Shown here: positions 5,542-25,595 of the stretch, in pieces | How the letters are laid out: every line of letters starts with the position of its first letter | How positions within the stretch are numbered: the stretch's first letter is position 1 | Origin: an uncultured Oscillospiraceae bacterium | Lineage (GTDB): Bacteria; Bacillota; Clostridia; Oscillospirales; Oscillospiraceae | Direction: 5' to 3' | NCBI GenBank assembly: GCA_947627285.1 | Contig: CANQVL010000024.1 | Coordinates: 1-40,348, forward strand | DNA length: 40,348 nucleotides | Notes under the pieces: model-generated | The model's input: only the letters and a program-made list of their open reading frames with translations | What the model was told of the DNA's origin: nothing | Database searches by the model: none | Program-made: the position numbers and the translations under genes

Positions 5542-6309
5542 ATGTACGATTTGGTTTTGATCTCAAAAACCGCTGACGATGTGACCGCGGTGGAGGAGCA
5601 CACTCATTCCACCTGGGAAATGTTCTATGTCCGCGTCGGCACAGGGTCATATCATCACGCGGGGCAGGACTACCCCTTTGTCCCGGGCGACATTTTCATA
5701 ACCCGACCCGGAGAGCCCCATTTCGAGACCTCCGAGCTGGGCTACGGGAACTATTTTGTATTCTTCAAGGATTTCTTCTCCTCCCAGGAGCGGAGCTTCT
5801 ACAGGTTCCACGACGCCGCCTCACAGCCTGTTCTCAATCTCCTGCACGTCCTTTACTCGGCGTCAATGGCGGGCAACAGCCACTATCTGTGCTCCTCTGT
5901 TTTTGAGAGCATACATCAGTTCGTGCGGTCCCTTCTGCCGCATACCGCCGCGAACCCATTTGTGGAGGCGCTGAAGGAGGAGATCGAGCAAAATTACCGC
6001 GACCCGAATTACAGGCTCGCCTCCTCAAAGCAGTCGCCCTTCTCCTCCGACCACCTCCGCCGGCTGTTCTTCAGCCAGTTCGGTGTTACGCCGCTCCAGT
6101 ACCTCATCTCTCTGCGGATAAACCGCGCAAAGCTGCTCATCAACGAGCGCAGTCAGACCTCCAGGTCGCTGAAGGAGATCGCCTTCCTCTGCGGATATTC
6201 GGATTATTACTATTTCTCCCGCCAGTTCAAGCAGCAAACGGGATTTTCCCCTCTGGAGTGGTCGCGCCTCTCGCCCTACTATTACAAGCAGGGTCAGGAC
6301 GGCGCTTGA
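5542..6309 (+). CDS. AraC-family transcriptional regulator
   Basis: 255 residues. The N-terminal cupin is clear: 'V-E-E-H-T-H-S-T-W-E-M-F-Y-V' and 'F-V-P-G-D-I-F-I-T-R-P-G-E-P-H-F' at about residues 16-60. The C-terminal AraC DNA-binding domain spans about 150-250 and ends in the typical 'L-K-E-I-A-F-L-C-G-Y-S-D-Y-Y-Y-F-S-R-Q-F-K-Q-Q-T-G-F-S-P-L-E-W' helices. The first helix-turn-helix is less canonical ('L-A-S-S-K-Q-S-P-F-S-S-D-H-L-R-R-L-F'). The start follows GGGAGG and a near-consensus promoter. It is divergent from the epimerase/kinase pair and convergent with the end of the seven-gene GH127 operon, so either could be its target. The spacer to that operon (6310-6359) shows no convincing terminator. 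Confidence 0.9.
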   Translation: MYDLVLISKTADDVTAVEEHTHSTWEMFYVRVGTGSYHHAGQDYPFVPGDIFITRPGEPHFETSELGYGNYFVFFKDFFSSQERSFYRFHDAASQPVLNLLHVLYSASMAGNSHYLCSSVFESIHQFVRSLLPHTAANPFVEALKEEIEQNYRDPNYRLASSKQSPFSSDHLRRLFFSQFGVTPLQYLISLRINRAKLLINERSQTSRSLKEIAFLCGYSDYYYFSRQFKQQTGFSPLEWSRLSPYYYKQGQDGA

Positions 6310-6359: not shown

Positions 6360-8219
6360 TTATGAAAGCCCCACCCTTTGCAGTCGGAACGGATTTTCGC
6401 GCGTGAAGGGGCGGGGCTTTATGCCTGTCATGGGGAGCCATGTGGTATACGGACTGCCTGTGGCGCCGGCGGTGTACAGGTCGCAAAGCACCATCTCATT
6501 TGTCCCGTCGCTCACGGTAAACGTCCTCCCCGCCCGCTTCGTCCTCTCGATTTTTCCAAGGCGCAGTGAGTCGGCGTCAAGAGTCGGCAGGGCCTCCACG
6601 TCACGTCCGCGGTCATAGTGCGGGTCCTCGCAGAGGACCATGGGGCCGTAATAGAGGCTCCCCTTCCCCTCAAGCCGTTCCTCGCCCGCCCAGGCCCGCA
6701 GGGACATATCAAAGCGAAGCTCCACTGTGTCCCCCGGACGGAAGCGCCGGCAAAGGTCCACGTATCCGCTTTTGCAGCTCACGGGAGGCTCGCCGTTTAC
6801 CGACAGCGCAGCCCTCTCCGACCAGAACGGGACGCGCAGCTTAATCGTCAGCTCCCTGTCCGGCGCCTCCTCAAAGCACAGTGTGACCCTGCCGTCATAT
6901 GGATAATCCGTCTCCTGGCGCAGGATGAGCCTTCCGGCTGAGAGCGTCAGCTCCGCGCGCTGCGGCTCATAGTAATTCACCACCAGCGCGCCGTCCTCCT
7001 CCATATACGCCCACTGCTCCAAAAGTCCAAAGGCACGTGGGGCGTTGACTGAGCAGCAATTGAGCTCCGGGCTCCCCGGACGGCATTGGAAGGATATCTC
7101 ATGATAGTTGGCGCGTTTATACCCCTCCATGGGCGTATCGTAGGTCGACCAGCGCCCGCTGGGAGAAAACGAGCCCATGCTGCTGTTCAAGGTGCTCAGC
7201 TCCAGCATATCCGCCGCGATGGGATCTCCGGTCAGGCGCAGTATATCGGCTGTCAGCGCCATATACGCCACCACACAGCAGGTTTCCACAGGCCCCTGCC
7301 TGTAAGGACTCCCCACCGCCTGTTCGCAGGTGGAAAAGCCCCCTGTGTTATGTACGTCCGTCGCCGTAATGCTCCGCCATATACGCTCCGCCGCCTGGCG
7401 TAAGTCCTCATCGCCGGTCGCCGCGTACATCTCCAAAAGCCCCTCCACCGGATGGATGCTCTCCCAGCGTGGCTTTGGCATCCTGTAAAACTCCTCTCCC
7501 GCCAGGGCAAGGCGCAGATAGTCCCCCGCGGGCTTGACGGACAGGTCCTCTATCAGCCTTTCGGCAAAGCGCAGATACCTCTCCTCCCCTGTTTTGCGGT
7601 ACAGCAGGGCAAAGACATGGAGCACGGAGAGGTTCATCTCCTCCGAGCCCGTCTCCACCACCCGCGGCTGGCCCTCGCCGTAAAACCGGCTTATAAACAG
7701 CTCGGCGGCGCGCCTTACCGCCGTCAGTGCGGCCTCTGAGCCGGAGGTCTCGTGCCAAAGGAGAAGGGCGTACATGATGTGGTAATGCGCCCAGCTGTCC
7801 CATGTCTCGATGCGCCCCTCCACATCATTGGGATCCAGGGCATATTTCATAGGCCCGCTCCTGCCGGTGAGCTCGCAGTCCTCAGGGAAGATCCCAAGGT
7901 AGCCGTCCTCCCGCTGAAGACCGATGAGCTCGTCTGCAAAGTCCCTTATGCAGCTCCCCAGGCGGGCATCGCCTGTGAGCCTGTATATCTGCACGGCGCT
8001 GGTGAGGTATTTTCCCGCAAACTCCCCTGACCACGCCAGCACCGGCTGCTTCATGGGAAGGCGCGAGTCCCGGATAAGCTCCAATATCGCCGGGTTGCTC
8101 TCCCTTATCCCAAGAAGCCACTGATCCGTGATCCTCCCAATGAGGCCCCCCGTTTCCCCTTTGAGCTCGATTTTTTTCCCGGACAGCGGAGCGAAGCGGA
8201 ATTTCTTTTCATTTGTCAT
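6360..8219 (-). CDS. GH127-type beta-L-arabinofuranosidase homologue (DUF1680), cytoplasmic
   Basis: 619 residues, normal for the family (formerly DUF1680). By comparison with the Bifidobacterium enzyme HypBA1, the catalytic and zinc-binding set is in place: E299 in CEQAVGSP (acid/base), E312 and C314 in VETC, and C388-C389 in LNCC, where the first Cys would be the nucleophile. The fold signature 'W-D-S-W-A-H-Y-H-I-M-Y-A-L-L' of the alpha/alpha barrel is present. There is no signal peptide, so it should act inside the cell on imported arabinofuranosyl oligosaccharides. The ATG at 8219 is preferred because GGAGGG lies 8 bases upstream; the longer frame to 8306 would run back into the preceding gene. 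It is last in the operon, 22 bases after the binding-protein gene. GH146 or another related specificity cannot be excluded. Confidence 0.9.
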   Translation of the reverse strand: MTNEKKFRFAPLSGKKIELKGETGGLIGRITDQWLLGIRESNPAILELIRDSRLPMKQPVLAWSGEFAGKYLTSAVQIYRLTGDARLGSCIRDFADELIGLQREDGYLGIFPEDCELTGRSGPMKYALDPNDVEGRIETWDSWAHYHIMYALLLWHETSGSEAALTAVRRAAELFISRFYGEGQPRVVETGSEEMNLSVLHVFALLYRKTGEERYLRFAERLIEDLSVKPAGDYLRLALAGEEFYRMPKPRWESIHPVEGLLEMYAATGDEDLRQAAERIWRSITATDVHNTGGFSTCEQAVGSPYRQGPVETCCVVAYMALTADILRLTGDPIAADMLELSTLNSSMGSFSPSGRWSTYDTPMEGYKRANYHEISFQCRPGSPELNCCSVNAPRAFGLLEQWAYMEEDGALVVNYYEPQRAELTLSAGRLILRQETDYPYDGRVTLCFEEAPDRELTIKLRVPFWSERAALSVNGEPPVSCKSGYVDLCRRFRPGDTVELRFDMSLRAWAGEERLEGKGSLYYGPMVLCEDPHYDRGRDVEALPTLDADSLRLGKIERTKRAGRTFTVSDGTNEMVLCDLYTAGATGSPYTTWLPMTGIKPRPFTRENPFRLQRVGLS

Positions 8220-8241
8220 AGCGTTTCCCTCCGTACAAACG

Positions 8242-9660
8242 TCACTTTCTCTCCGCCCATTCCTTCTGCATCTCCTTTTCAAGCTTTGGCATGATCTCGT
8301 CAACAATTACCTCCCGTGCCGTCTTTTTACCCGACCACACCTGGTCCAAGGGAGTGTTGATCACCTGGTAGATCGTGGTGTAGTTGTAAAGCTTAAACAT
8401 GTTGTCCCGCACGGCACAGTCACGCATGACGTCGACCACGGCGGTCCTGTATTCATCCGTGTAATATTCTCCGCCGCTCAGCCACTCGTCTATTTTCTCC
8501 TCGTCGGTGTAATAGCTCATGTCCGACGGCATCCACAGCCCCTTTTGTACCTGCCCCATGATGTTGTCCGTATCGTACATATACTCCAGCAGACGCATCG
8601 CCTCCTCCTTGTGCTCCGATTCCTTGAAGACCGTGATTATCGGGCCGGAGGTCAGGACCGTATAGTTTTTCAGCACCGGACCCACCCCAAAGCCCAGGTT
8701 CAGCGTGCCGTTTTCGATATACTTCTTGTACCACAGCAGATTGTACTGACCGGCGTAGCTCATTGCCACCTTCCCCGTGAGGAGGACGTTGTTCCCGCCG
8801 CCTATGGCGCCGCGGGACGCGGGATTCGGCATGACGTGATATACGTTTATAAGGTCCGCGACCATCTGATACGCCTCTATCGTCTCCTCCCTGTCCATCC
8901 AAATCTCGGTCGCGTCACTGTTCAGTATCCCGCCTCCGTTGTTTATCGCCAGCATCTCCGCGGGGAAATCGGATATCGCGTATACCTTTATATGGTCCGG
9001 GTCAAAGCCCTCCTCATCCGGATGCCTGCCGTTCACATCCACCGTCAGCCTTATACACGCGTCTATAAATTCCCCCCACGACCAGGCGTCCTCCACACGC
9101 GACGGGACATCGACGCCCATAGAGGCGCAGTAATCCCTGTCGTAGAAAAGCGTATAGCATTCGGCGATATAGCTGGCGCCCACCGTTCCGTTTGAGGTGT
9201 TGTCAAAGGTCACCGCCTCAAGCCGGCCGCTTATCTGACCGCTTTCGTAAAGCTCGCCCACATCGGCGTACATTCCGTTCTTTGCCCATTTCATAGTGCT
9301 CATTTCCTGCATTTGCCCGATATCCGGCATCGTATGCGTCGCCGCCATGGAGTTGAGCTTTGTCATATACTCCCCCTGGGGGATATACAGGTAGTTGACC
9401 TTTATATCGGGATTGTCCTTTTCAAAGGCGGCAAATATCTCCTCAAACATCTTCCTTTCCTCGGAATCGCCCCAGTTGCAAAACGTTATCTCCGTGACGT
9501 CTTCGCCGCCGCCCGCCTGTTCGCCGCCCTGGGAGCCGCCTCCGCCCTGCTCCACCTGTATGCCTGAGCCCGCCCCGTCCTTTGAGCAGGCCGTCAAAGA
9601 CAACAGCGTCAAAAGGCAAAGGGCCCACGCAAGCCAACGTCTTGGATATTTATTCTTCAT
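8242..9660 (-). CDS. Sugar ABC transporter substrate-binding lipoprotein
   Basis: 472 residues. A lysine-rich start and hydrophobic stretch lead to the lipobox L-T-A-C (Cys at about residue 25), followed by a Gly/Gln-rich linker to about residue 53. The mature protein begins 'E-I-T-F-C-N-W-G-D-S-E-E-R-K-M-F-E-E-I-F', typical of the family 1 extracellular solute-binding fold (MalE/UgpB-like) used with CUT1 permeases. It would catch oligosaccharides outside the membrane and pass them to the two permeases encoded upstream in the same operon. It lies between two GH127 genes rather than next to the permeases, which is unusual. The start is 6 bases after the previous stop with AAGGAG 11 bases upstream. 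Confidence 0.93.
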   Translation of the reverse strand: MKNKYPRRWLAWALCLLTLLSLTACSKDGAGSGIQVEQGGGGSQGGEQAGGGEDVTEITFCNWGDSEERKMFEEIFAAFEKDNPDIKVNYLYIPQGEYMTKLNSMAATHTMPDIGQMQEMSTMKWAKNGMYADVGELYESGQISGRLEAVTFDNTSNGTVGASYIAECYTLFYDRDYCASMGVDVPSRVEDAWSWGEFIDACIRLTVDVNGRHPDEEGFDPDHIKVYAISDFPAEMLAINNGGGILNSDATEIWMDREETIEAYQMVADLINVYHVMPNPASRGAIGGGNNVLLTGKVAMSYAGQYNLLWYKKYIENGTLNLGFGVGPVLKNYTVLTSGPIITVFKESEHKEEAMRLLEYMYDTDNIMGQVQKGLWMPSDMSYYTDEEKIDEWLSGGEYYTDEYRTAVVDVMRDCAVRDNMFKLYNYTTIYQVINTPLDQVWSGKKTAREVIVDEIMPKLEKEMQKEWAERK

Positions 9661-9666
9661 ACGGCA

Positions 9667-11580
9667 TTATTCTCCTTTCTCCGAATCAAATCGTTGGTTC
9701 CAACAGCACGCTCCGCGCGCCAGGCGCGGTGGAACAAGCTGGGAATTATCAAACCATGTGGTGTACCGCGTCCCGCTCTGCCCCGCCGTCGCGAAATCGC
9801 AAAGCGTCACCGTCTCCCCCGCCGCGTTGCGCGCCTTCAACAGCACGGCGGGCGACGGGTATCCCTCCTCGCTGACCGTGAGCTCAGGCGAAAAGCTCTC
9901 CAGGTCCAGAGCCTGAGCCCTCCCGTCCCACTCCGGCTCAAAACGGCTGTCCAATGCCAGGAGGACCGGGCCGCGGTATACCGATATTTGCCCCAGATGG
10001 GTCTTTTCAGCCGCCCAATAGTGCGGGCTCATATCCAGGGAAAGCTCCACGGTGTCGCCGCTCTCCCAGGTCTTTGTGATTTTGTAGTATCCTCCCGCCA
10101 GCGGCTTCTCAAGCCTCTTGCCGTTGACTGAGATCTGCGTGTTCTCGGACCATATCGGCACGCGGATATTCAGGCTGAAGGCTTCCGCCTCCTCCGGCTC
10201 CAATGTCAGCCGTACCGTTCCGTCAGCCGGATAGCCGGTGCGTTGCGTAAGCCGGATGAGATTGCCGGCGGGGGTGGCGGCAACCATCTCGCTTTCCCCG
10301 AAATAGTTGACGTAGATCCCGGTATCGTCGCGCGTAAGCGCCCAGTCGGACAGCGTGCCGATGCCAAGCGCGGCGTTGGACATACAGCAGCTGAATTCCG
10401 GCGCGCCCTGCACCGCCTGCCAGTTCAGCTCCTGGATGGACGCCACCCTGTAGCCCTCCTGGGGCGTGTCATACGTCCACCAGCGCCCCGCCATATCCTG
10501 CGCTCCCAGAACGGCGTTCCAGAAGGTGAGCTCAAGCTCGTCTATAAGGTCAGAGCGCTTAGCCCTGCCTGCCGCCTCAGCCAAAAGATATGCCCAGCTG
10601 ACGTTTCCGCAGGTCTCGGCGCTTCCCGCCTCGTAAGGCGAGCCGACGGCTCCCTCCGCGGTGGTATTGGCGCCCGTACTGCGCCTGTCGGTGAGTATGA
10701 TGCTCTCGACCATATACTGGAGCGCGTCCTCGTAGCCGCTGTCCCCCAGCGCCTCCCCGATCGGTCCCAGCGCCGCCACCTCAAAGACGTTTTCCCAGTT
10801 GTTTCGCAGCGTCTCGCAGTATTCCACGCCGTTCTCCGCCGCGTTTTTATAGTCTCCGCCTGTCCAGCCCCAGGCGAGGATATATTTCTCAAGCAGCTGA
10901 TAGAATCGCGCCTCTCCCGTCTCCAGGTACAGCTGGGCGATCCCGCCTATGGGCATTGTGTCGTTTATTCCCCGCGTCTCCGCCTGCTCGATGTAATAAT
11001 CCCCCAGCCGTATACTCAGCTCCAGCGCCGCCGGACTTGAGCTGGACATGTACCACTCGATCGCTCCGTTCAGCCAGGACGGATTGATCAGTGGGAATTC
11101 CTCGCCCTCGGCGTCATATTCAAGACTGCCGTACTCGTCAAGGCACGCTAGAGCGTCCGCCACTATCCGCTCCATCTTTTCATAAAGGACCGGGTCGCGC
11201 TCCATTTCATAACACCCCGCCGCTCCCCGCAGAAGACACGGAGTAAACATCCCGAACCAGAAATCCACCTGTCCGGCGATGTCGGTCTCACCGTTCTGCC
11301 TCACGGAATCCAGCATAAGCGGGTTGCTCTCATAGGCGTCGTAGAGCCAATTCTTCAGATTCGCGTCAACACGCGCCCCCACATATCCGCCAAAATGAGC
11401 AAGGTACTGCGTGCCCTTTAAGGCCGCGTCTTCCCTGTCCTTCGAGTCCAGCTCCGACAGGTCAAAATAGGCCCCATCAGACGTATCCTCCCGATTTTGC
11501 GCCGCTGCGTTATCGCATCCGCCGGCGAGGAGGCACAGACATATAAGAAACGCCGTGACCCGGATCGCTTTTTTGTTCAT
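9667..11580 (-). CDS. GH127-type beta-L-arabinofuranosidase homologue, lipoprotein
   Basis: 637 residues from the ATG at 11580, which has GGGGAGG 7 bases upstream and overlaps the preceding stop as ATGA. The N-terminus MNKKAIRVTAFLICLCLLAG-G-C is a lipoprotein signal peptide, so the enzyme should sit on the outer face of the membrane. The family residues are present: E309 in EGAVGSP, E322 and C324 in AETC, and C398-C399 in FSCC, the predicted nucleophile and zinc site. The sequence has diverged strongly from its two paralogues (for example F-S-C-C-M-S-N-A in place of L-N-C-C-S). It probably removes beta-L-arabinofuranosyl or similar groups before uptake. Substrate is inferred from the family only. 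Confidence 0.88.
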   Translation of the reverse strand: MNKKAIRVTAFLICLCLLAGGCDNAAAQNREDTSDGAYFDLSELDSKDREDAALKGTQYLAHFGGYVGARVDANLKNWLYDAYESNPLMLDSVRQNGETDIAGQVDFWFGMFTPCLLRGAAGCYEMERDPVLYEKMERIVADALACLDEYGSLEYDAEGEEFPLINPSWLNGAIEWYMSSSSPAALELSIRLGDYYIEQAETRGINDTMPIGGIAQLYLETGEARFYQLLEKYILAWGWTGGDYKNAAENGVEYCETLRNNWENVFEVAALGPIGEALGDSGYEDALQYMVESIILTDRRSTGANTTAEGAVGSPYEAGSAETCGNVSWAYLLAEAAGRAKRSDLIDELELTFWNAVLGAQDMAGRWWTYDTPQEGYRVASIQELNWQAVQGAPEFSCCMSNAALGIGTLSDWALTRDDTGIYVNYFGESEMVAATPAGNLIRLTQRTGYPADGTVRLTLEPEEAEAFSLNIRVPIWSENTQISVNGKRLEKPLAGGYYKITKTWESGDTVELSLDMSPHYWAAEKTHLGQISVYRGPVLLALDSRFEPEWDGRAQALDLESFSPELTVSEEGYPSPAVLLKARNAAGETVTLCDFATAGQSGTRYTTWFDNSQLVPPRLARGACCWNQRFDSEKGE

Positions 11581-13598
11581 CTCCATACCTCCCCTTCCCA
11601 ACGTGACAGCCATTTTTCTGCGCCGGTGCGGACCTCCAGCAGCTCCGGGTCGACCGCCGGCAGCCAGGAGGTGTAATCCGTGCCGGCTTGTCCGGCAGTG
11701 GCAAAATCGCACAGCACAAGGCGCGTCCCGCCGGCACATTCCGCCTCGAGGCATATGACCGGCTCCGGATACGCGGGGACCACCTCCGGCTGAGCGGGCG
11801 AAAGCCTCAGGGTCCCGAGCTCAAGCTGTGGGAGCTCCTCCTTCGGGAGGTTACCGTTGAACCTCTCATCGTAGGTAAGCAGCAGCGGTCCGTAGTATAG
11901 GGATACCTGGCCCGCCCTGTTTTCCTCACCCTGCCACGCGTGTACCGTCATGGCTATATCGAGCCGCACAACATCCCCGCTTTTCCATACGCGCCGGACG
12001 GAGCAATACTCTCCCGCCTTACACTCCACGCTCTCCCCGTTGACGGTGACCGCGCTTCCCTCCGCCCAGGCAGGTATCCTGAGGCGCAGTGTGAATTCCT
12101 CCTCCGCCTCCACGGAAAGCTTAACAGCCACAGCTCCGCCGCGCGGATAATCCGTCTCCTCCTCAATAAGGAGCTTTGCGCCGGAGGGAGTCGTCAGAGC
12201 AAAGCTGCTCTCGCCGTAATAGTTGACGGTAACTCCCCTCTCATCGGTGCCGGCCGCCCATTCGGACAGCAGTCCAAAGCCGTTGGGACCGCTCATGGAA
12301 CAGCAGTTGAGCTCCGGACTCCCCGCCGTCGCCTGGAAGCCAAGCTCTATTGCCGACGCGAGCCTGACCCCCTCGTCTGGGGTGCTGTAAGTAAAGTTCC
12401 TTCCCGAGGCCGCCTGAGCTCCCAACAGCGCGTTCAGCGTGGAAAGCTCCAGCTCGTCCGCCAGACGGCTGTCGCCGGTGAGCCTCAGGGCCTTCGCCGT
12501 CAGCTCCATCCATGTCACAGTGGCGCAGGTCTCCACGGAGCCCTCCCGGTAGGGCGACCCCACCGCCTGCTCCCCGCTCATCATTCCGCCGCTGTTGTGG
12601 CGTTCATATTCGCAAAGCGACCGGTACAGGTTCAAAAAGGCATCCTTATATGACTCATCCCCCGTAAGCTCGTAGACGTCCGCCAGACCCAGCACTGCGT
12701 GCATCGTCTCCCAGCGCTTTTGCTTCAGTCCGTTATACGGTGTCCCCGCCAGACCGCGCCGGTAAAAATCACCGCCGTTTTCCCCCTGCCACGCCGCCAG
12801 GAGGCAGTTCGCGAAATCAAGCCAGCCCTGCTCGCCGGTCATCTCATAGAGCCGCAGATATACAGGCAGTATGGACAGGTTCTTGTCCCCCTCCCTGATC
12901 TCCGAAATGCTGTGTCCGTCGTTAAAATAGTCCGCAATAAAGCGCGCCGCCCCTTTTGCCGTCTCAAAGGCAAGCTCGTTTCCGGTCCTGTCGTACCACT
13001 CCAGCAGTCCGCGGATTATGTGGTAATGGTTCCACATATCCCAGTTTGACGTGTTCATGGTACTGCCGCCGATATCCATCGAGACGCTCCCCAGCATTCG
13101 GTCCCCGCGGAAGAATACGCCAAGGTAACCGTCCCCGCCCTGCGCCTTGGACAGCGCGTCGGTGAGACTGTCGCCGATTTTTTTCAGCTCCTCATCGGGA
13201 TAAAGCGCGTAGACCCTGGCGATCCCCATCAGGTACTTCCCCGGAAACTCCCCGTACCACGCCACCAAATTGTGCTGTATCGCCGCGTCCCGCTGATAAA
13301 AGCGCTCCATCATTCCGGAATTGCTGTAATACGCGGTGTACAGCCAGCGGTTTACCAGGTTCTCGATCCGCTCCCCCATGACGCCCCCAAAGGAGGCGCC
13401 GCGCAGGGCTCCCGCCCTGTCGAACACAGGGTCCTCCAACGTAAGGTAAGGCTGTGAGAAGCTGTCCCACTCAGGCGTTTGAGCCCTATACCCCGCTTCT
13501 TCGCTGTCGCCGTCCTCATTTTCTCCTGTCCGCGCGCCGCACCCGCTCAAAAGCAGCGCAAGAGCCAGCGGCAGACAGCATAATTTTTTAAATTTCAT
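11577..13598 (-). CDS. GH127-type beta-L-arabinofuranosidase homologue, lipoprotein
   Basis: 673 residues from the ATG at 13598, preceded by AAAGGGGGA. The start MKFKKLCCLPLALALLLSGC carries the lipobox L-S-G-C, then an acidic linker. Motifs: 'W-D-M-W-N-H-Y-H-I-I-R-G-L-L' in the barrel, E343 in GEQAVGSP (acid/base), E356 and C358 in VETC, C432-C433 in LNCC. It is closer to the cytoplasmic paralogue at 6360-8219 than to the lipoprotein encoded immediately downstream. It lies 50 bases after the second permease gene and is translationally coupled (ATGA) to the next GH127 gene. Two different surface GH127 enzymes made from overlapping genes suggest that they cleave different linkages of the same polymer (inference). 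Confidence 0.9.
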   Translation of the reverse strand: MKFKKLCCLPLALALLLSGCGARTGENEDGDSEEAGYRAQTPEWDSFSQPYLTLEDPVFDRAGALRGASFGGVMGERIENLVNRWLYTAYYSNSGMMERFYQRDAAIQHNLVAWYGEFPGKYLMGIARVYALYPDEELKKIGDSLTDALSKAQGGDGYLGVFFRGDRMLGSVSMDIGGSTMNTSNWDMWNHYHIIRGLLEWYDRTGNELAFETAKGAARFIADYFNDGHSISEIREGDKNLSILPVYLRLYEMTGEQGWLDFANCLLAAWQGENGGDFYRRGLAGTPYNGLKQKRWETMHAVLGLADVYELTGDESYKDAFLNLYRSLCEYERHNSGGMMSGEQAVGSPYREGSVETCATVTWMELTAKALRLTGDSRLADELELSTLNALLGAQAASGRNFTYSTPDEGVRLASAIELGFQATAGSPELNCCSMSGPNGFGLLSEWAAGTDERGVTVNYYGESSFALTTPSGAKLLIEEETDYPRGGAVAVKLSVEAEEEFTLRLRIPAWAEGSAVTVNGESVECKAGEYCSVRRVWKSGDVVRLDIAMTVHAWQGEENRAGQVSLYYGPLLLTYDERFNGNLPKEELPQLELGTLRLSPAQPEVVPAYPEPVICLEAECAGGTRLVLCDFATAGQAGTDYTSWLPAVDPELLEVRTGAEKWLSRWEGEVWR

Positions 13599-13648
13599 CA
13601 GGTCCCCCTTTGATAAGGCATAAATATGTTTCCGCATCGGCGCCGCCG

Positions 13649-14491
13649 TTATTTCATTCCGCTGAGTATCCTGCCGTTGACGAAATACCGCTGGCAGAAA
13701 AGGAACAGCAGCACCGCCGGGACCGTTGTGGCGACCGCCCCCGCCATTATCACGCCCAGGTTGCTCCCATAGCTTCCGGAGAACTGCTGCATCGCCAGTG
13801 CGAGCGTATACTTGTTCGGGTCATACAGCATGATCAGCGGCCCCATGAAATCATTCCAGCAGCCAAGCACCGTAAACACGGTCACCACCACTAAAGCCGG
13901 GCGGATCAGCGGCAAAATGATGCGCCAATACACCCAGAAAAAGCTCGCCCCCTCAATGTACGCCGCGTCGTCAAGCTCCCGTGGGATGCCCATTATAAAC
14001 TGGCGCAAAAGGAAAATGTTGAACGCCCCGCCGCCGAAAAACGAGGGGATTATCAACGGCCAGTATGTGTTGATAAGCCCGAGCTCATTCCAGATTATGA
14101 ACCCCGGGATCATCGTCACCGCTCCCGGAAGCATCATCGTCGCCAGGCACAGGGTAAACCACAGCTTTTTCCCGGCAAATCGCAGTCTGGCAAACGCGTA
14201 GGCCGCCATACTGCTTGTAAGCACCGTGCCGACGGTCACAGGCACAAGTATCTTCATCGTGTTCAGCGCGTATTTGAAAAACGGAAACTCACCGGAAAAT
14301 ATTTCGCCGTAATTTTCCGCGTGCGGGCTCTCGGACCACATCAGCGGCGGCTGCCGGTATATCTCCCGCAGATCCATCAGCGATGTGCGGATGAGCCAGA
14401 AAAACGGGAACAGGCACACTGCGCTTCCCAGCACAAGGATCAATGTGCATATCCGCCGGATCCGACGGTCATTTTTACTGACTTGTTTCAT
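13649..14491 (-). CDS. Carbohydrate ABC transporter permease (MalG/AraQ type)
   Basis: 280 residues with about six membrane segments. The cytoplasmic EAA loop is visible as 'E-L-D-D-A-A-Y-I-E-G-A-S-F-F-W-V-Y-W-R-I-I-L-P-L-I-R-P-A-L' at about 185-213, which docks on the ATPase. The length, the N-terminal segment 'A-V-C-L-F-P-F-F-W-L-I-R-T-S-L' and the 'Y-F-V-N-G-R-I-L-S-G-M-K' tail are typical of CUT1 second permeases. GAGGTG lies 8 bases before the ATG. The gene begins 11 bases after the first permease gene ends. It should form the membrane channel with that protein and rely on a shared MsmK-type ATPase, because none is encoded here. Confidence 0.94.
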   Translation of the reverse strand: MKQVSKNDRRIRRICTLILVLGSAVCLFPFFWLIRTSLMDLREIYRQPPLMWSESPHAENYGEIFSGEFPFFKYALNTMKILVPVTVGTVLTSSMAAYAFARLRFAGKKLWFTLCLATMMLPGAVTMIPGFIIWNELGLINTYWPLIIPSFFGGGAFNIFLLRQFIMGIPRELDDAAYIEGASFFWVYWRIILPLIRPALVVVTVFTVLGCWNDFMGPLIMLYDPNKYTLALAMQQFSGSYGSNLGVIMAGAVATTVPAVLLFLFCQRYFVNGRILSGMK

Positions 14492-14502
14492 TTTGTTTCA
14501 CC

Positions 14503-15426
14503 TCAGCTTTGCCCCGACTCGTAGAACACCCGGCTCTTGAACACCCTGAAAAACAGCGCGGACAGCACGACTATCAGCAGGAAAAGCATCCACGCCATGG
14601 CGCAGGCGTACCCCATCTGATTGTCCGTAAACGCCTTCAGATACAGGTAATAGGAGAAGAACAGGCTCTTTCCGTTGGGTCCGCCGCCGGTCATCATCAT
14701 AGCCTGTGTAAATACCTGAAGGGAGCCGATCATGCTCATCAGCACGTTGAAAAACAGCACCGGCGAAAGATACGGCAGCGTTACCGTCCTGAACCGCGCC
14801 CAGGCTCCGCCGCCGTCGATAGCCACGGCCTCCAAAAGCTCCGGCGGGACCGACTGGAGCCCCGACAGGTAGATCACTATCGAGCCGCCGCAGGACCAGA
14901 CAGACATTAGGACCAGGGACGGGATAACGGTGGATTCACCCGCCAGCCAGTCGCAGGGCGGAAGCCCCAGGGCGGACAAGATGTTGTTGAACAGGCCGTA
15001 ATCCACATTGAACAGCCAGCCCCATAACAGCGCCTGGGCGACCGCCGGAACGATGGTGGGCAGATAATAGATAGTGCGGAATATCCCCTGGAGCCTTGTG
15101 TCGGTGTTCAGCAGAAGCGCCACCGTAAGGGCGACCAGATTGGAGGAGATCACCGACAAAACGGCATAATAAAGCGTCGCCTTCACCGAGCCCCAGAAGT
15201 AGTAGTCCTCCGTCAGAAGCGACCGGTAATTTCCAAGCCCCACAAACGTCCAGTCGGTCAGCATGTTCCAATCCGTCAGGCTCGCCGCAAGGCTTACAAG
15301 TATCGGCAGCAGCGCGAACAGAAGCAGTCCCAGCAGGGCGGGACCGGCGAAGAGATAGCCGGCGAGGTTCTCTCTTCGCGCCCTTCCGCTCAAATGGGTA
15401 TTTTTCCTTTGCTTTGCCAAGCTCAA
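14503..15426 (-). CDS. Carbohydrate ABC transporter permease (MalF/UgpA type)
   Basis: 307 residues with about six membrane segments. It begins with a basic N-terminus and 'Y-L-F-A-G-P-A-L-L-G-L-L-L-F-A-L-L-P' and has 'R-T-I-Y-Y-L-P-T-I-V-P-A-V-A' and the EAA loop 'E-L-L-E-A-V-A-I-D-G-G-G-A-W-A-R-F-R-T-V-T-L-P-Y-L-S-P', all hallmarks of CUT1 first permeases. The start is a TTG: the codon at 15426 overlaps the stop of the giant surface protein gene (TTGA), with AAAGGAGG only 3 bases away. An in-frame TTG at 15420 has 9-base spacing and may be the real start. Either way the genes are coupled. Confidence 0.93.
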   Translation of the reverse strand: MSLAKQRKNTHLSGRARRENLAGYLFAGPALLGLLLFALLPILVSLAASLTDWNMLTDWTFVGLGNYRSLLTEDYYFWGSVKATLYYAVLSVISSNLVALTVALLLNTDTRLQGIFRTIYYLPTIVPAVAQALLWGWLFNVDYGLFNNILSALGLPPCDWLAGESTVIPSLVLMSVWSCGGSIVIYLSGLQSVPPELLEAVAIDGGGAWARFRTVTLPYLSPVLFFNVLMSMIGSLQVFTQAMMMTGGGPNGKSLFFSYYLYLKAFTDNQMGYACAMAWMLFLLIVVLSALFFRVFKSRVFYESGQS

Positions 15427-18400
15427 TTTCCTCCTTTGCCTCCCCTGCGCTTACCGCGCCATACGGCGATCCCAACACCTCCCGCCGCGACAGCGGCGGC
15501 GGCGCCGACCGCCCGGATCCACACGCCTGATGACCTATGCTCCTCCGGTACAGTATCCGTACCGTCCTGCGCCGGGGGCGGCGCGATGGCGGGAGGTATG
15601 TCCTCCGGCTCCGGTTCCGTCGCCTTCTCGCACCAGAGCCTGACGCCGTCGATGTAATACGTTCCCATTCCGCTGTCAAGGTTCGGATACAGGACCGCGT
15701 AGGAAAGATGTTCAAAATCCATGACCCCGCTGCCGTCTGTCGGGCGGAGCACGGCGGGATTCCCCGCTGTGTCCGTGTTTACCTGCAGCCAGCCCCGGCT
15801 GCTCAGCGCCGAGTTCAGCCCGCAGCTGAGCCATTTTTCCGTTCCGTCGTCAAATTGCAAATAGATGCTGTACTGAAGGAAAAGTACCTCTCCTCCCTCG
15901 GATTTCGCGAAGCAGGTAAAATACCAGTCTCCCCAGCCTACCTGCTTCAGATAGTCTGTAACCACCCAACCCGCGCCGCTGTAGCTGCTCTGCTGATCGC
16001 TCACCTTCAGGCTGAAGCTGCCGGAGTAGCTGTCCTCCTCCGTGCGCTCAAGCCTCGCTCCCTCGCCGTGCGTAAAAAGGTGTCCGGGCGCTCCCGCGTC
16101 CAGGGGATCCTCAAAATCTCCGTCCAGCGGAAAGCTGTCAAATTGGAACGTGGGAGCCTCATATTCGTCCGGTCCCCTTCTCAGGCTTACATCGTCAAGA
16201 TAATAGTCCCCAAGCTCGTTTTCCTTTGTGCACGGGTAAAGCGTGGCCTGCTCGAGCTTTGAGAAATCATGCGTCATTCCCTTTACGCTCCTCAACAGCG
16301 CGTCGCCGCCCGCGTAGTCCGTATTCACCGGGCACCACTCGTCCGGAGTGATATAATACATCGCCGGCGGCTGGAGCCAGTCCTCAGTGCCGTCCTCAAA
16401 CCGCAGATATATGCAGTAATGGAGCATCATGGGCTCGTCCTTTGCCCGGGCATACGCGTGGAAGAAATAATTGCCCCGGCCTTCATTTCGCAGGAGCTCC
16501 GTCACATCCCACCCCGCGCCGGAATACGCCAAGGTGCGGTTGGAAACATGAATGCTGTCAAGTCCCTGATATTTTACGTCGTAGTCCCTGGTGAGCACTC
16601 CGTCGCCGTGGACAAAATAGCTCTCCCCGCCCACGGTCATATCGTCGCGCTCCCGCGCCGGCTCGCCCGTAAGCGACGCCGCGCCGATATAATAATCGCC
16701 CAGCTGTCCCTCCCCCGTGGTGGGGTAAACCACCACGCGCTCAAGCCCTTCAAGCCACGCCCCGGGGATCTCAAACACCCCCAGGACCGTCGTCCAGCTG
16801 CCGCCTCCTATCCTCGCAGAGGCGCTCAGATATTTGCAGTCGGCGACGTCCTCCGAATACCAGAACTCCATATTGTAGGTGAGGTCCGTCTCATCCTCCG
16901 ACCGGGCTTCAACGGAAAGCGTCCACTGAAGATCCTTCGCAAGCGTCCCCAGCGAAGCGGCGGGGATACTCCATGCCGCGCCCTCCCAGACGTTCCGGCG
17001 GCCGGAGACCTTCAGGCTCTTCCCGCCCTTATATTCGGGATCTGCCGCCGAAAGCTGCACGCTGTCGCCCTGGGCATATGGCTGGACGCCGCAAAGAGGC
17101 ATACTTACCGTTTTTCCTGCGGACGGCTTGCTCCCGCCGCCGTCACTCTCCTTTGGCGCGGGCTCGCCTGTGAGCGACACCTCCGCCAGGTAGTAGTCGC
17201 CCAGCTGTCCCTCCCCCGTCATGGGGTAAATCACCACACGGACAAGATTTTCAAGCCACTCCTCCGGTATATTGAACGTGCCAACCAAGTGCGTCCACCC
17301 GTCGGGCCCTATTTTCGCCGTCGTACTCTGATATTTGCAATCCGCCACGTTATCCGAATACCAGAACTCCAGGTTATACGAAAGCTCCATCGCCTCGTCG
17401 CCCCGCGCCTGCATTGAGAGCATCCACAGCCGGTTTTCAAAAAGCTCCCCAAGCGAGGAGGCAGGAATATTCCACGCCGCGCCTTCCCAAATATTCCGGC
17501 GTCCCGCGACCTTCACGCACTGTCCCTCAAAGCCGGCGTCCTCCGCGTCGGACAGCGTCACGCCCTCGCCCTGTGCGTAGGGCTCAGCGCCCAGGACCGC
17601 AAGCTCCTTAACATACTCCGGCGCTTTAGTCCCTGTGAGCGCCACCTCCGCCAGGTAATAATTACCCAACTGTCCCTCCCCCGTCATGGGGTAAATCACC
17701 ACACGGACAAGATTTACAAGCCACTCCTCCGGTATATTGAACGTGCCAACCAAATGCGTCCACCCGTCGGGCCCTATTTTCGCCGTCGTACTCTGATACT
17801 TGCAATCCGCAACGTTATCCGAATACCAGAATTCCAGGTTATACGAAAGCTCCATCGCCTCGTCGCTCCGCGCCTGCATTGAGAGCATCCACAGCCGTTT
17901 TTCAACAAGCTCCCCAAGCGAGGAGGCGGGAATATTCCACGCCGCGCCCTCCCAAACATTCCGGCGTCCCGCGACCTTCACGCACTGTCCCTCAAGACCG
18001 GCATCCTCCGCGTCGGACAGCGTCACGCCCTCGCCCTGTGCGTAGGGCTCAGCGCCCAATATCTCCAGCTCCTTAACATACTCCGGCGCTTCTGTTCCTG
18101 TTAGCTCCACCTCAGCCAGATAGTAATTACCCAGCTGTCCCTCACCCGTCATGGGGTAAATCACCACACGGATAAGATTTTCAAGCCAGTCCTCCGGTAT
18201 ATTGAACGTGCCAACCAAACGCGTCCACCCATCGGGCCCGATCTGCGCCGTCGCTCTCTGGTACTTGCAATCCGTCACGCTATCCGAATACCAGAACTCC
18301 AGATTATACGAAAGCTCCATCGCCTCGTCGCTCCGCGCCTGCATGGAGAGCATCCACAGCCTGTTTTCAGCAAGCTCCCCCAGCGAGGAGGCGGGAATAT

Positions 18401-21047
18401 TCCACGCCGCGCCCTCCCAAGCATTCCGGCGCCCCGCGACCTTCATGCCGGCATTATCCCCATATGCCATATTTCTATCTGAGGACAGCGACACCCTTTC
18501 GCCCTGGGCGTATGGCTTGATCCCGCAAAGCGGCATATTTACCGCCGGCTGTACATTCTGATCCGTAAACACGGGCGGGTCTTGACGCTCCGGGACCGGC
18601 TCGCCTGTGAGTCTCACCGCCCCCAAGTAATAGTCTCCCAGCTGTCCGTCTCCCGTGGTGGGATATATAACTATGTGGTCAAGACTACTCAGCCATTCCT
18701 CGGCTATTTCAAACGTCCCCGTAAGGGCAGTCCACTCGCTGTTGCCGATTTGTGCCGTTGCGTGCTGATAATTATTGCCGCTGCGGGTGAGATACCAGAA
18801 TTCAAGGTTATATGTGAGCTCCATCGCCTCCGCGTCCGCGCGGGCGTCGACGGAGATCGTCCACAGCCTGTTCTCTGTAAGCTCGCCAAGAGCCGAGGCG
18901 GTAATGCTCCACGCCGCCCCCTCCCAGACGTTCTGACGGCCCGTCACCTTTATACAGCTGCCTCCCTCATAGGACGGCTCATCTGTCAAAGAGAGCGTCA
19001 CACCGGCGCCCTGTGAATATATCCCGGCGCCGCAGGGCGACACAGCGTCCCCCTCAGGCATAGCCGCGCCGGTGAGCTCCACCGCGCCGACATAGTAATC
19101 TCCCAGCTGTCCGTCGCCGGTGGTGGGGTAAATAACAATGTGGTCCAGACTTGAAAACCACTCCTCAGGTATCTCAAAGGACCCCGCGAGCCGCGTCCAG
19201 CCGCCGTTCCCGATTTGAGCGGTCACACTCTTATAGTTTTTCTCATCCCTGCCGGAATACCAGAATTCAAAATTATAGGTGAGGTCCATTGACGTGTCCG
19301 CCGACTGCGCCTGCATCGAGAACGTCCACAGACGCTTCTCCGCAAGCTCCCCCAGCGACCCGGCGGGTATGCTCCACGCCGCGCCCCCAAATGTCTCCTG
19401 GCGGCCCGCCGCCCTCACGCTTGCCTTTCCCTCATAAAGCGGCTCCGCCGCCGCGTTCAGCGTCGTCCCGGTCCCCTGTGCGTAGGGCTTCTCTCCGCAC
19501 AGCGTCACATCTCCCATCTGCACGCCTGTGAGCGATACGCTCCCGATGTAATAATCCCCCAGCTGCCCCTCGCCGGTGGTGGGATAAATAACGATGTGGT
19601 CCAGATTCGAAAACCACTCCTCCGGTATCTCAAAGGTCCCGGACAAAAGCGTCCAATCTCCGTTCCCGATTTGTCCGGCAGCGCTTTGGTATTTGCAGTC
19701 GTCTATCGAGTTGCCCGAATACCAAAACTGAAGATTATACGTGAGATCCATCGCCGCGTCCGCCGACTGCGCCCGCATGGAAAGCGTCCACACCCGATTC
19801 CCTGTGAGCTCCCCCAGCGACCCGGCGGGGATATTCCACGCCGCGCCCTCCCAGACGTTCTGACGGCCCGTCGCCCTCATACTTGACTTCCCCTCAAAAA
19901 GCGGCTCCGCCACGGCGGGTATTGTCGCCCCGTCTCCCTGGGCGTAGGGCTTGGCGCCGCAAATCGACATATCGCCGATGGGTATCCCGTTCAGCGACAC
20001 CGCGTCAAGGTAATAGTCGCCGAATTGTCCGTCTCCCGTCACGGGATAAATCACAATGTGAGTGAGATTTGAAAGATACTCATCAGTCATCTCAAAGTCC
20101 CCGCTCAAAAGCGTCCAGCCGCTGTTCCCGATATGCGCGTTAACGCTCTTGTATTTGCAGTTGTTCACGTCATCGGAATACCAAAATTGAAGATTATACG
20201 TGAGGTCCATCTCCCCGTCCGCCGACCTCGCCTGCATCGAAAACGTCCACAGCCGCTTCTCCGCAAGCTCCCCCAGCGACCCGACAGGAATATTCCACGC
20301 CGCGCCCTCATATGTCTGCGCGCGGCCGGATACCCTCAGGCTGCTGTTCCCTTCATATACCGGCTCGTTTACCGCCGGCAGCGTCACCCCGCCTCCCTGG
20401 GCGTAGGGCGCTGCGCCGCACAGGGACATATCGTCCACCGTCACGCCCAGAAGCGACACCTCCGCCAGGCAGTAATCGCTCAACTGCCCCTCCCGGCTCT
20501 GAGGATAGATCACTATATGGTCCAGGTTAACAAACCAATCCTGCGGCACCTCAAAGGTCCCCGCAAGCCTCGTCCATCCGCCGTTCCCGATTTGTGCGGT
20601 AACACTCTTATAGTTTTTCTCTTCCCTGCCGGAGTACCAGAATTCAAAATTATACGTGAGGTCCATTGACGTGTCCAAGGACTGCGCCTGCATCGAAAAC
20701 GTCCATAGCCGCTTCTCCGCAAGCTCCCCCAGCGACCCGGCGGGTATATTCCACGCCGCGCCCTCCCATGGCTGCGCGCGCCCCGTCGCCTTCAGACTGC
20801 CGCTCCCCTCGTAAGACGGGTCCTCGACCATGGAAAGCGCTCCGCCCTGTGCATACGGCTGAACACCGCACAAGGGCATATTGATTTCCGACGGATCCGC
20901 CGCCTGCCTTCCCGGCCCGCTCTCTACCGACGAAGGCTCCCCCTTGACATAGGCCGCGCGGGCGACGCTGACTGCCGGTGAGCACAAGCCTATCAACAGT
21001 GCCATCGCCAGCGAAAAGCCAAATAGACATTTTTTCCAACTACTCAT
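15423..21047 (-). CDS. Giant membrane-anchored surface protein with eleven carbohydrate-binding-like repeats
   Basis: 1874 residues. Residues 1-32 are a signal peptide ('M-A-L-L-I-G-L-C-S-P-A-V-S-V-A-R-A'). Nine repeats of about 150-155 residues fill 57-1469, each opening like 'L-C-G-x-x-P-Y-A-Q-G' and keeping 'Y-E-G-x-x-S-x-x-x-x-G-R-x-x-x-W-E-G-A-A-W-x-I', 'L-T-Y-N-x-E-F-W-Y-S' and 'V-I-Y-P-x-T-G-x-G-Q-L-G-D-Y-Y-L'. Two diverged copies occupy about 1470-1625 and 1640-1809. The repeat pattern resembles CBM4/9- or CBM22-type jelly-roll modules; I saw no catalytic domain. A Pro/Glu linker (1810-1840), one membrane helix (1841-1863) and a basic tail (RGKRRGGKGGN) anchor the C-terminus; there is no LPXTG. 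The start ATG has AAAGGAG 11 bases upstream. It is first in the operon with permeases and GH127 enzymes, so it likely holds polysaccharide at the surface. The ligand is unknown. Confidence 0.85.
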   Translation of the reverse strand: MSSWKKCLFGFSLAMALLIGLCSPAVSVARAAYVKGEPSSVESGPGRQAADPSEINMPLCGVQPYAQGGALSMVEDPSYEGSGSLKATGRAQPWEGAAWNIPAGSLGELAEKRLWTFSMQAQSLDTSMDLTYNFEFWYSGREEKNYKSVTAQIGNGGWTRLAGTFEVPQDWFVNLDHIVIYPQSREGQLSDYCLAEVSLLGVTVDDMSLCGAAPYAQGGGVTLPAVNEPVYEGNSSLRVSGRAQTYEGAAWNIPVGSLGELAEKRLWTFSMQARSADGEMDLTYNLQFWYSDDVNNCKYKSVNAHIGNSGWTLLSGDFEMTDEYLSNLTHIVIYPVTGDGQFGDYYLDAVSLNGIPIGDMSICGAKPYAQGDGATIPAVAEPLFEGKSSMRATGRQNVWEGAAWNIPAGSLGELTGNRVWTLSMRAQSADAAMDLTYNLQFWYSGNSIDDCKYQSAAGQIGNGDWTLLSGTFEIPEEWFSNLDHIVIYPTTGEGQLGDYYIGSVSLTGVQMGDVTLCGEKPYAQGTGTTLNAAAEPLYEGKASVRAAGRQETFGGAAWSIPAGSLGELAEKRLWTFSMQAQSADTSMDLTYNFEFWYSGRDEKNYKSVTAQIGNGGWTRLAGSFEIPEEWFSSLDHIVIYPTTGDGQLGDYYVGAVELTGAAMPEGDAVSPCGAGIYSQGAGVTLSLTDEPSYEGGSCIKVTGRQNVWEGAAWSITASALGELTENRLWTISVDARADAEAMELTYNLEFWYLTRSGNNYQHATAQIGNSEWTALTGTFEIAEEWLSSLDHIVIYPTTGDGQLGDYYLGAVRLTGEPVPERQDPPVFTDQNVQPAVNMPLCGIKPYAQGERVSLSSDRNMAYGDNAGMKVAGRRNAWEGAAWNIPASSLGELAENRLWMLSMQARSDEAMELSYNLEFWYSDSVTDCKYQRATAQIGPDGWTRLVGTFNIPEDWLENLIRVVIYPMTGEGQLGNYYLAEVELTGTEAPEYVKELEILGAEPYAQGEGVTLSDAEDAGLEGQCVKVAGRRNVWEGAAWNIPASSLGELVEKRLWMLSMQARSDEAMELSYNLEFWYSDNVADCKYQSTTAKIGPDGWTHLVGTFNIPEEWLVNLVRVVIYPMTGEGQLGNYYLAEVALTGTKAPEYVKELAVLGAEPYAQGEGVTLSDAEDAGFEGQCVKVAGRRNIWEGAAWNIPASSLGELFENRLWMLSMQARGDEAMELSYNLEFWYSDNVADCKYQSTTAKIGPDGWTHLVGTFNIPEEWLENLVRVVIYPMTGEGQLGDYYLAEVSLTGEPAPKESDGGGSKPSAGKTVSMPLCGVQPYAQGDSVQLSAADPEYKGGKSLKVSGRRNVWEGAAWSIPAASLGTLAKDLQWTLSVEARSEDETDLTYNMEFWYSEDVADCKYLSASARIGGGSWTTVLGVFEIPGAWLEGLERVVVYPTTGEGQLGDYYIGAASLTGEPARERDDMTVGGESYFVHGDGVLTRDYDVKYQGLDSIHVSNRTLAYSGAGWDVTELLRNEGRGNYFFHAYARAKDEPMMLHYCIYLRFEDGTEDWLQPPAMYYITPDEWCPVNTDYAGGDALLRSVKGMTHDFSKLEQATLYPCTKENELGDYYLDDVSLRRGPDEYEAPTFQFDSFPLDGDFEDPLDAGAPGHLFTHGEGARLERTEEDSYSGSFSLKVSDQQSSYSGAGWVVTDYLKQVGWGDWYFTCFAKSEGGEVLFLQYSIYLQFDDGTEKWLSCGLNSALSSRGWLQVNTDTAGNPAVLRPTDGSGVMDFEHLSYAVLYPNLDSGMGTYYIDGVRLWCEKATEPEPEDIPPAIAPPPAQDGTDTVPEEHRSSGVWIRAVGAAAAVAAGGVGIAVWRGKRRGGKGGN
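16641..20879 (-). repeat. Nine tandem coding repeats (about 450-510 bp each) in the surface-protein gene
   Basis: Approximate repeat units on the minus strand: 20430-20879, 19971-20429, 19509-19970, 19044-19508, 18537-19043, 18069-18536, 17604-18068, 17103-17603 and 16641-17102. Units 7 and 8 differ at about 12 of 150 residues by hand comparison and are almost identical over long DNA stretches (around 17230-17400 versus 17695-17865). Units 1 and 4 share a long block ('Y-N-F-E-F-W-Y-S-G-R' through 'N-G-G-W-T-R-L-A-G') although not adjacent. Units 10 and 11 (16131-16640 and about 15620-16130) are related but much more diverged. Confidence 0.9.
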
Positions 21048-21080
21048 GCTTTTTTCCACTCCTTTATAACATAACGCCGC

Positions 21081-21169
21081 CAAATATTGACCAAATGTTA
21101 CAACAAAACGCCTCGGCAAACAAATATTCTGTAACATTTTATATAATTATGGGAGAAATTGTAGGTCAA
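21081..21169 (-). promoter_or_regulatory. Promoter and candidate operator of the surface-protein/GH127 operon
   Basis: On the minus strand TTGACC (21164-21169) lies 18 bases from TATATA (21140-21145), about 95 bases before the start at 21047. Just downstream is a perfect 10-bp inverted repeat, AAATGTTACA (21093-21102) and TGTAACATTT (21130-21139), plus a direct repeat CAAATATT at 21081 and 21121. These straddle the expected transcription start and could bind a repressor or stabilise the leader (inference). Confidence 0.5.
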
Positions 21170-21256
21170 TACAATACATTTTTTTGAGATTATGATGGAC
21201 ATTTCCGATATTGCAAAATTTACCACCGCAAACCCCCGTCACTCCCCCGTCAGCAC

Positions 21257-21289
21257 AAAAAAAAACAACCCGACCTTTTACGGTCGGGT
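21257..21289 (-). terminator. Intrinsic terminator after the MATE exporter gene
   Basis: An 8-bp stem ACCCGACC/GGTCGGGT (21282-21289 with 21268-21275) is followed on the minus strand by TG and a run of nine Ts. It lies 24 bases after the exporter stop codon and separates that gene from the surface-protein operon promoter. Confidence 0.92.
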
Positions 21290-21312
21290 ATTTCTATGTG
21301 CATAATCTTAAC

Positions 21313-22794: not shown

Positions 22795-22821
22795 CCCCTC
22801 CCGCGCATAGCATTGAACCGT

Positions 22822-22850
22822 ATTCTACCAAACGCGACAGGATATTTCAA
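22822..22850 (-). promoter_or_regulatory. Sigma-A promoter for the MATE gene
   Basis: Minus strand TTGAAA (22845-22850), 17-base spacer, TAGAAT (22822-22827). The predicted transcript starts about 20 bases before the TTG start codon. Confidence 0.7.
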
Positions 22851-22920
22851 CTGTTATTCTTGCTCTAAAATTCTGCGTTTCTTGCTGTTTTCCCCCGCCC
22901 CGACCCTTTTGCGCCGTTCC

Positions 22921-23814: not shown

Positions 23815-23826
23815 AATGATCTCCTG

Positions 23827-25564: not shown

Positions 25565-25595
25565 AAGGACCTACCTCCTTGAATTTGATGCGGAC

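Follow-up and report, generated by a model that had tools for sequence, protein, structure and literature searches.

A candidate Gram-positive polysaccharide-utilization locus with a CBM22-like surface array, GH127-family proteins and an adjoining UlaE/FGGY module

Overall organization of the locus

The window analysed here is a 40,348-nucleotide contig (CANQVL010000024.1; contig C24 of genome G000) of an uncultured Oscillospiraceae bacterium, probably of animal-gut origin, whose genome assembly spans 2.81 Mb and is 98.7% complete. Positions 6360–21047 were occupied by seven genes, all on the minus strand, encoding a surface protein with repeats resembling family 22 carbohydrate-binding modules (CBM22), two CUT1-type permeases, three proteins of glycoside hydrolase family 127 (GH127 a, b, and c), and an ATP-binding cassette (ABC) solute-binding lipoprotein (Table 1). 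An original prediction from the sequence alone had described these genes as one operon for the capture, trimming, import, and final hydrolysis of an arabinofuranosyl-rich polymer. The seven-gene observation was confirmed, and the coordinates, overlaps, and domains held on re-examination. The order of transcription was CBM array, permease 1, permease 2, GH127 b, GH127 c, binding lipoprotein, and GH127 a; the binding lipoprotein, previously listed ahead of the lipoprotein GH127s, was actually the sixth gene, after both.

The junctions in this order were −4, +11, +11, −10, +6, and +22 bases, with the starts of a and c corrected to 8219 and to 11586 or 11580, respectively. An internal Met of b as start would widen the gap after permease 2 to about +50 bases, and the second Met of c would give a b/c junction of −4. 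The seven genes are likely to be transcribed as a single unit, because the strong terminator at the MATE gene is followed by only one promoter-like match (9/12) before the array gene. Promoter-like sites between positions 5000 and 23000 numbered 16, compared with 9.1 ± 3.0 in shuffled sequences.

The nearest relative carrying the locus was a sister genome (G005), which, like G000, is a draft assembly. The gene order was retained there, with amino-acid identities of 95–100%. The dN/dS values, obtained from this single genome pair with few changes per gene, ranged from 0.00 to 0.32: 0.00 and 0.13 in the two permeases, 0.03 in the binding protein, 0.10 in c, 0.19 in the array, 0.27 in a, and 0.32 in b. 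They indicate purifying selection on the region as judged against the sister genome. The synonymous divergence of the six operon genes at 6360–15426 was 0.03–0.08, lower than that of the array gene (0.11) and of the GH3 and SpoIIR genes (0.15–0.16), perhaps owing to recent exchange.

Table 1. Features of the locus and of related loci (L numbers). G and C numbers in the text denote genomes and contigs.
Feature	Position	Strand	Remarks
AraC-type regulator fused to GH39-like domain	430–2934	+	Partial AryK-model match, far below cut-off
FGGY carbohydrate kinase, putative L-xylulose-type pentulokinase	3017–4555	−	FGGY_N/C; best PDB match autoinducer-2 (AI-2) kinase 5ya0
UlaE-type L-ribulose-5-phosphate 3-epimerase	4543–5415	−	TIGR00542, 358.7 bits (cut-off 272.15); UlaE 3cqh, 7e-85
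AraC-type regulator	5542–6309	+	Divergent from UlaE/FGGY pair, convergent with operon
Cytosolic GH127-family protein a	6360–8219	−	619 residues; PF07944 1.4e-40 (longer frame scored); no signal peptide seen by eye
ABC solute-binding lipoprotein	8242–9660	−	SBP_bac_8 3.2e-22 (SBP_bac_1/8); lipobox-like motif
GH127-family lipoprotein c	9667–11586	−	PF07944 1.6e-15, PF20736 3.3e-24 (longer frame scored)
GH127-family lipoprotein b	11577–13637	−	PF07944 3.6e-42, PF20736 1.5e-20; lipobox LSGC; nearest PDB 4qjy, 2.3e-32
CUT1-type permease 2	13649–14491	−	BPD_transp_1 1.3e-17
CUT1-type permease 1	14503–15426	−	TTG start; 4-base overlap with array gene; BPD_transp_1 9.5e-14
Surface protein, 1874 residues	15423–21047	−	Signal-peptide-like N-terminus, eleven CBM22-like repeats, Pro-rich linker, C-terminal transmembrane anchor
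Intrinsic terminator, MATE gene/operon boundary	21268–21289	−	Strong; 8-bp stem and T-run
397–419-residue family, L118	2438–3631		
397–419-residue family, L121	12308–13567		
397–419-residue family, L131	280–1473		
397–419-residue family, L132	271–1461		
397–419-residue family, L155	3–620		

Surface CBM22-like array

The C-terminus of the array protein consisted of a hydrophobic segment followed by Lys/Arg residues; this anchor and the N-terminal signal were read from the sequence by eye. The eleven carbohydrate-binding-like repeats predicted originally proved to be real. Nine were of type A, with pairwise identities of 52–89%, and two divergent C-terminal repeats were of type B, 20–29% identical to type A and 39% identical to each other. 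The array matched CBM_4_9 of Pfam at 6e-61, and no catalytic domain scored above the Pfam cut-off.

The AlphaFold2 model of one repeat (pLDDT, predicted local distance difference test, 91.6) was a beta-sandwich, and the best structural matches of this predicted fold were CBM22 modules. Similarity to CBM22 was also found at the profile level (4xup, 7.4e-12; 1dyo, 8.1e-7), so that the carbohydrate-binding fold expected of the repeats was borne out by both searches. Residues W53, Y103, Y134, Y136, and E138 of CBM22 are those that we take to form the xylan-binding cleft. The array resembled the xylan-binding modules of C. thermocellum Xyn10B and P. barcinonensis Xyn10C in fold and in some of the presumed cleft aromatics, with an aromatic residue at W53 in 11/11 repeats, Tyr at Y136 in 11/11, and Tyr at Y103 in 9/11. 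However, the repeats were 13–20% identical to CBM22 modules in the Foldseek rows, and Y134 and E138 were conserved in 0/11. The repeat family was rare, occurring in 2/394 genomes of the window's order.

GH127-family proteins

The catalytic domain PF07944 and the middle domain PF20736 were above both cut-offs in a, b, and c. The nearest solved structures, 4qjy, 5mqo, 6ex6, and HypBA1 (3wkw), were all distant relatives. The three proteins were included in an 86-protein MAFFT alignment, whose members came mostly from a pattern scan of one genome per species (84,980 species) that gave 67 loci, one from the sister genome and 66 others. The counts describe the clade and not GH127 at large, because the search patterns select the clade. 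HypBA1 residue numbering was transferred via the canonical GH127 of the same genome on contig C19, which matched 4qjy at 8.6e-195 and 3wkw at 3e-141 and retained both His142 and His270.

In HypBA1, Cys417 is the nucleophile and the site is Zn(Cys3Glu). The corresponding residues were kept in a, b, and c and in almost the whole alignment (Glu338 86/86, Cys340 86/86, Cys417 84/86, and Cys418 85/86). His270 of HypBA1, presumably a sugar-pocket residue, was replaced by a gap in 79/86 aligned sequences, including those of a, b, and c. His142, which contacts the O5 atom of an arabinofuranose-mimicking inhibitor (PMC10728902), was replaced by Trp in 78/86, again including all three. The operon proteins thus shared the Zn ligands and the Cys nucleophile with HypBA1 and 4qjy, whereas they differed in both histidines and belonged to a distant clade. 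The loss of the sugar-binding histidines with retention of the Zn/Cys site suggests that the chemistry of a, b, and c is likely conserved and their specificity likely changed. For the second carboxylate, Glu322, phmmer paired Glu356 of b with the glutamate of 4qjy and 6ex6, whereas the MAFFT alignment separated these columns.

In protein c, the catalytic Glu and Cys were present, and the HYHI wall stretch and other segments were deleted. Judged from its conservation (dN/dS 0.10), c appears not to be decaying but to be either an altered enzyme or a pseudoenzyme with a binding role. The tree grouped b and c with the lipoprotein of locus L069 (support 0.896). The clade with Trp at position 142 and no His270 spanned Clostridia to Planctomycetes and Bacteroidia, with relatives of a in several phyla, and pairs of b- and a-type genes were found elsewhere in L065, L069, L081, and L083.

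Two cytosolic relatives of a, in L065 (12863–14596) and L081 (5588–7330), had Ser at the catalytic cysteine, one of them having lost both cysteines; both are possible pseudoenzymes. Pairs of secreted-looking paralogues lay directly 5' of the GH127 lipoprotein gene in the same loci (L065 6691–9838; L081 7340–9989), with CE2_N-like matches in 3/4, and may be analogous surface binders. Contig C13 of G000 (20001–40000; L041) carried a second GH127-like gene, two permease-like genes, and three neighbours without a Pfam match at 0.001.

Transporter genes

Each permease gave a single BPD_transp_1 match. In NCBIfam, permease 1 was UgpA/GlcT-like and permease 2 UgpE/GlcU-like, both below cut-off. The best PDB match of the binding protein was 5f7v (9.2e-18), and the second was the arabino-oligosaccharide-binding 6rjy (4.4e-17). 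Lipobox-like motifs, read by eye, were LSGC in b, AGGC in c, and LTAC in the binding protein.

The adjoining UlaE/FGGY/AraC module

The locus seems to be wider than the boundaries drawn originally, extending into a module of an AraC-type regulator, a UlaE-type 3-epimerase, and an FGGY kinase. The AraC/GH39-like fusion beyond the kinase is possibly a sugar-sensing regulator of the locus. Relatives of the AraC-type regulator, 30–36% identical, adjoined UlaE/FGGY genes in L118, L121, and L122. For comparison we take the UlaE/SgbU route of E. coli with an L-xylulose kinase, one of the closest known systems; the window shared with it an epimerase above the curated cut-off, and relatives had the kinase and AraD partners, whereas the window module adjoined a glycan locus and not ascorbate or L-xylulose uptake genes.

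UlaE and/or FGGY genes recurred within the fetched stretch of three of the 66 other GH127-clade loci (L069, L075, and L093). The chance expectation was 0.08 (P 8.5e-5) with the observed kinase prevalence and 0.35 (P 0.005) with one copy per genome, in a test that assumes 2.5-Mb genomes and was posed after the matches were seen. In L075 and L093, both from Bacteroidia, GH127, UlaE, and FGGY genes formed one gene row, with 55–63% identity to the window UlaE and FGGY; L093 had a second GH127 gene and a GH32 gene in between, followed by AraD. The 5.7-kb L069, from a Clostridia genome labelled as water-buffalo rumen, encoded the end of a CBM-like protein, a GH127 lipoprotein, AraC (reverse), GH127a, and the start of UlaE (41% identity over 88 residues). 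The surface protein end comprised one CBM-like repeat and a transmembrane-like tail. The pairing of a membrane-anchored CBM-like surface protein with GH127 was thus found outside the sister genome, directly 5' of a GH127 lipoprotein, although with a weak match (E 6.5e-5) cut by the contig start. Another contig of that genome began inside an FGGY gene, followed by AraD; the two contigs were not joined.

Orthologues of the FGGY kinase (E ≤ 1e-110) were present in 14/60 GH127-clade genomes (6/10 genomes partly chosen for gene content and 8/50 others; six of the 66 were not examined), compared with 7/394 genomes of the window's order including its own. The Fisher p value for 14/60 versus 6/393 was 2.5e-9, with taxonomy uncontrolled and with overlapping sets (G496 is G272, the genome of L064, and is in both). 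Among the order carriers, G272 has GH127a in L064, whereas the genome-wide GH127 search did not cover G381 and G449.

The GH32 protein of L093 (6362–8638) and a related fragment in L158 (1–754; 39% identity over 225 residues) adjoined UlaE/FGGY/AraD genes in Bacteroidia and Clostridia-group genomes. In other Clostridia, a family of 397–419 residues, 68–73% identical, was encoded 5' of FGGY, with UlaE in between in 3/5 (Table 1). One member had no Pfam match and two had no NCBIfam match; the family could be a sugar isomerase. Elsewhere in the window, a protein with S-layer homology domains (31747–32901, plus strand) was 80% identical to its G005 counterpart, and the adjoining GH3 protein 95%.

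Proposed function and alternative explanations

We consider it fairly probable that a Gram-positive polysaccharide-utilization locus extends from about 21.2 kb to about 0.4 kb and includes the UlaE/FGGY module. The capture-trim-import-finish layout predicted originally was supported by gene content and domains. The transmembrane-anchored array of eleven CBM22-like modules would use avidity to keep the glycan bound to the cell surface, and the GH127 lipoproteins, with b enzyme-like and c an altered paralogue, would trim furanosyl residues. The oligosaccharides would be imported by the binding lipoprotein, the two permeases, and an ATPase presumably encoded elsewhere, and the cytosolic GH127 a would free the monosaccharide. 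The FGGY kinase, UlaE, and an AraD encoded elsewhere would then convert the sugar via L-xylulose 5-phosphate and L-ribulose 5-phosphate to D-xylulose 5-phosphate, with AraC-type control.

Several observations weigh against this proposal. The original prediction had suggested looking for the same gene order in other genomes; it was kept in the sister genome, but the exact seven-gene layout was confined to these two, 2/34 of the genus. UlaE/FGGY genes were not seen in the fetched stretch of 63/66 loci, and the FGGY orthologue was not found at 1e-110 in 46/60 GH127-clade genomes. Conversely, no GH127 match at 1e-20 was obtained for the FGGY carriers G100 and G102, and only a weak one for G101. 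L069 was cut at both ends, contained no ABC genes, and had only the weak CBM match. The kinase matched 12 NCBIfam families, all below cut-off (XylB, 220 vs 380 bits; AI-2 kinase, 194 vs 528 bits); an L-xylulokinase model was not among them, the existence of such a model being unchecked. An aldose isomerase was not among the genes recognized in the locus.

A more specific version is put forward tentatively: operon and module would act on an unrecognized furanoside-rich glycan, with the polymer captured by the array, a new specificity of the GH127 clade, and the sugar entering as L-xylulose. As read from the residues and neighbouring genes, such an L-xylulose-feeding specificity is plausible. 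In its boldest form, the released sugar would be a ketofuranoside needing no isomerase, because a relative of GH32-type ketofuranosidases adjoins the UlaE/FGGY/AraD set in L093 and L158.

Delivery of L-arabinose from a β-L-arabinofuranoside (arabinan, arabinogalactan, or hydroxyproline-linked arabinan) is a possible but doubtful alternative. The retained Zn/Cys site of a, b, and c, the 6rjy match of the binding protein, and the AraD and canonical GH127 genes of the genome are consistent with it. However, the changes at His142 and His270 speak against this target, which was weakened further by the adjoining UlaE and FGGY genes, since the L-arabinose pathway does not require the UlaE 3-epimerase. 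A search for AraA (PF02610), which 16/34 genus genomes possess, gave no match in G000 or its sister G005; the gene could have been missed, because both assemblies are drafts and the arabinose-type cluster on C19 lies near a contig end. Nor is its absence a rule of the system, because AraA was found in some kinase carriers among the other GH127-clade genomes, with strong matches in 3/14. No GH43 or GH51 match exceeded the cut-off among the 27 window proteins scanned for Pfam domains, the rest of the genome not having been searched for GH43. In favour of the arabinose alternative, nearly all characterized enzymes in a GH127/GH146 comparison are β-L-arabinofuranosidases, with the exception of BT1003 (PMC10850190). 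We caution that a PF07944 protein is not automatically an arabinofuranosidase and that this label should not be given to every such protein. The C19 cluster (30000–44729; L040) itself comprised the canonical GH127, AraD, and an FGGY kinase, together with genes recognized by eye as transketolase and transaldolase, but no AraA; in L139 of a relative, AraA lay inside a comparable cluster.

It is unlikely that the module is an unrelated neighbour and that the operon acts alone on a furanoside. The AraC gene is convergent between the two units, and such independence would fit both the 63 loci with no module nearby and the occurrence of the module in two genomes of the window's order that gave no GH127 match (G100 and G102), but the independent linkage of GH127a to UlaE or UlaE/FGGY in L069, L075, and L093 argues against it.

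Another GH127-type furanoside, for example an anhydrosugar or the aceric acid side chain of rhamnogalacturonan II (RG-II), is an improbable target; in that case the module would process an unusual pentose. GH127 also holds aceric acid hydrolase and 3,6-anhydro-D-galactosidases (PMC5698469), and aceric acid hydrolase was the sole NCBIfam match of a, b, and c at 1e-5, but at 125–136 bits against a cut-off of 950, and no family recognized as RG-II-specific was found among the 27 window proteins. We likewise give little credence to an array that is mainly an adhesin to plant fibre or mucus, loosely related to the GH127 and ABC genes: the array is non-catalytic, repetitive, anchored, and of a rare repeat family, but its gene overlaps the permease gene by 4 bases and a similar GH127 pairing occurs in L069.

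Comparison with known systems

The layout, the CBM fold, and the CBM/GH127 pairing of the original prediction were upheld, and its arabinose target was weakened. Its remark that it knew of no described system with this layout was not borne out, since B. longum BLLJ_0208–0213 (PMC7263609) and a Roseburia Gram-positive polysaccharide-utilization locus (gpPUL; PMC5320581) are on record. The B. longum Hyp cluster (HypBA1 GH127, HypBA2 GH121, HypAA GH43, and an ABC importer) encodes a solute-binding protein, two permeases, GH127, GH43, and a GH121 enzyme that carries CBM32-type domains and is probably anchored in the membrane (PMC7263609). The window locus resembled it in the binding protein, the two permeases, the anchored CBM-type surface protein, and the intracellular GH127. 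However, the surface protein of B. longum is an enzyme, whereas eleven non-catalytic CBM22-like repeats were found here, the surface enzymes being lipoproteins from a distant GH127 clade, and a UlaE/FGGY module adjoined the operon. No match named GH121 appeared in general scans of the window proteins, the presence of a Pfam GH121 model being unchecked, and no counterpart of the GH43 partner was found among the 27 proteins.

The Roseburia gpPUL Ros-8 contains GH51, GH127, and an ABC transporter, and the Roseburia and Eubacterium rectale gpPULs share with the window an enzyme, an ABC transporter, and a regulator in one locus (PMC5320581). By gene content, the window locus contains the degrading enzyme, transporter, and transcriptional regulator by which Sheridan et al. 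define a gpPUL. For those gpPULs, polysaccharide binding is expected from CBMs within enzymes (PMC5320581), whereas here a dedicated non-catalytic array would serve.

The dedicated CBM22-like array, the distant-clade GH127 surface lipoproteins, and the UlaE/FGGY pathway end differ from known gpPULs. If the proposed function is correct, the widespread GH127-like clade would become open to direct testing, since the sugar that its enzymes should release is predicted from the adjoining kinase and epimerase. In Bacteroides, non-catalytic capture of glycans at the surface is carried out by SusD/SGBP proteins, and this role would be held in a Gram-positive locus by the dedicated array.
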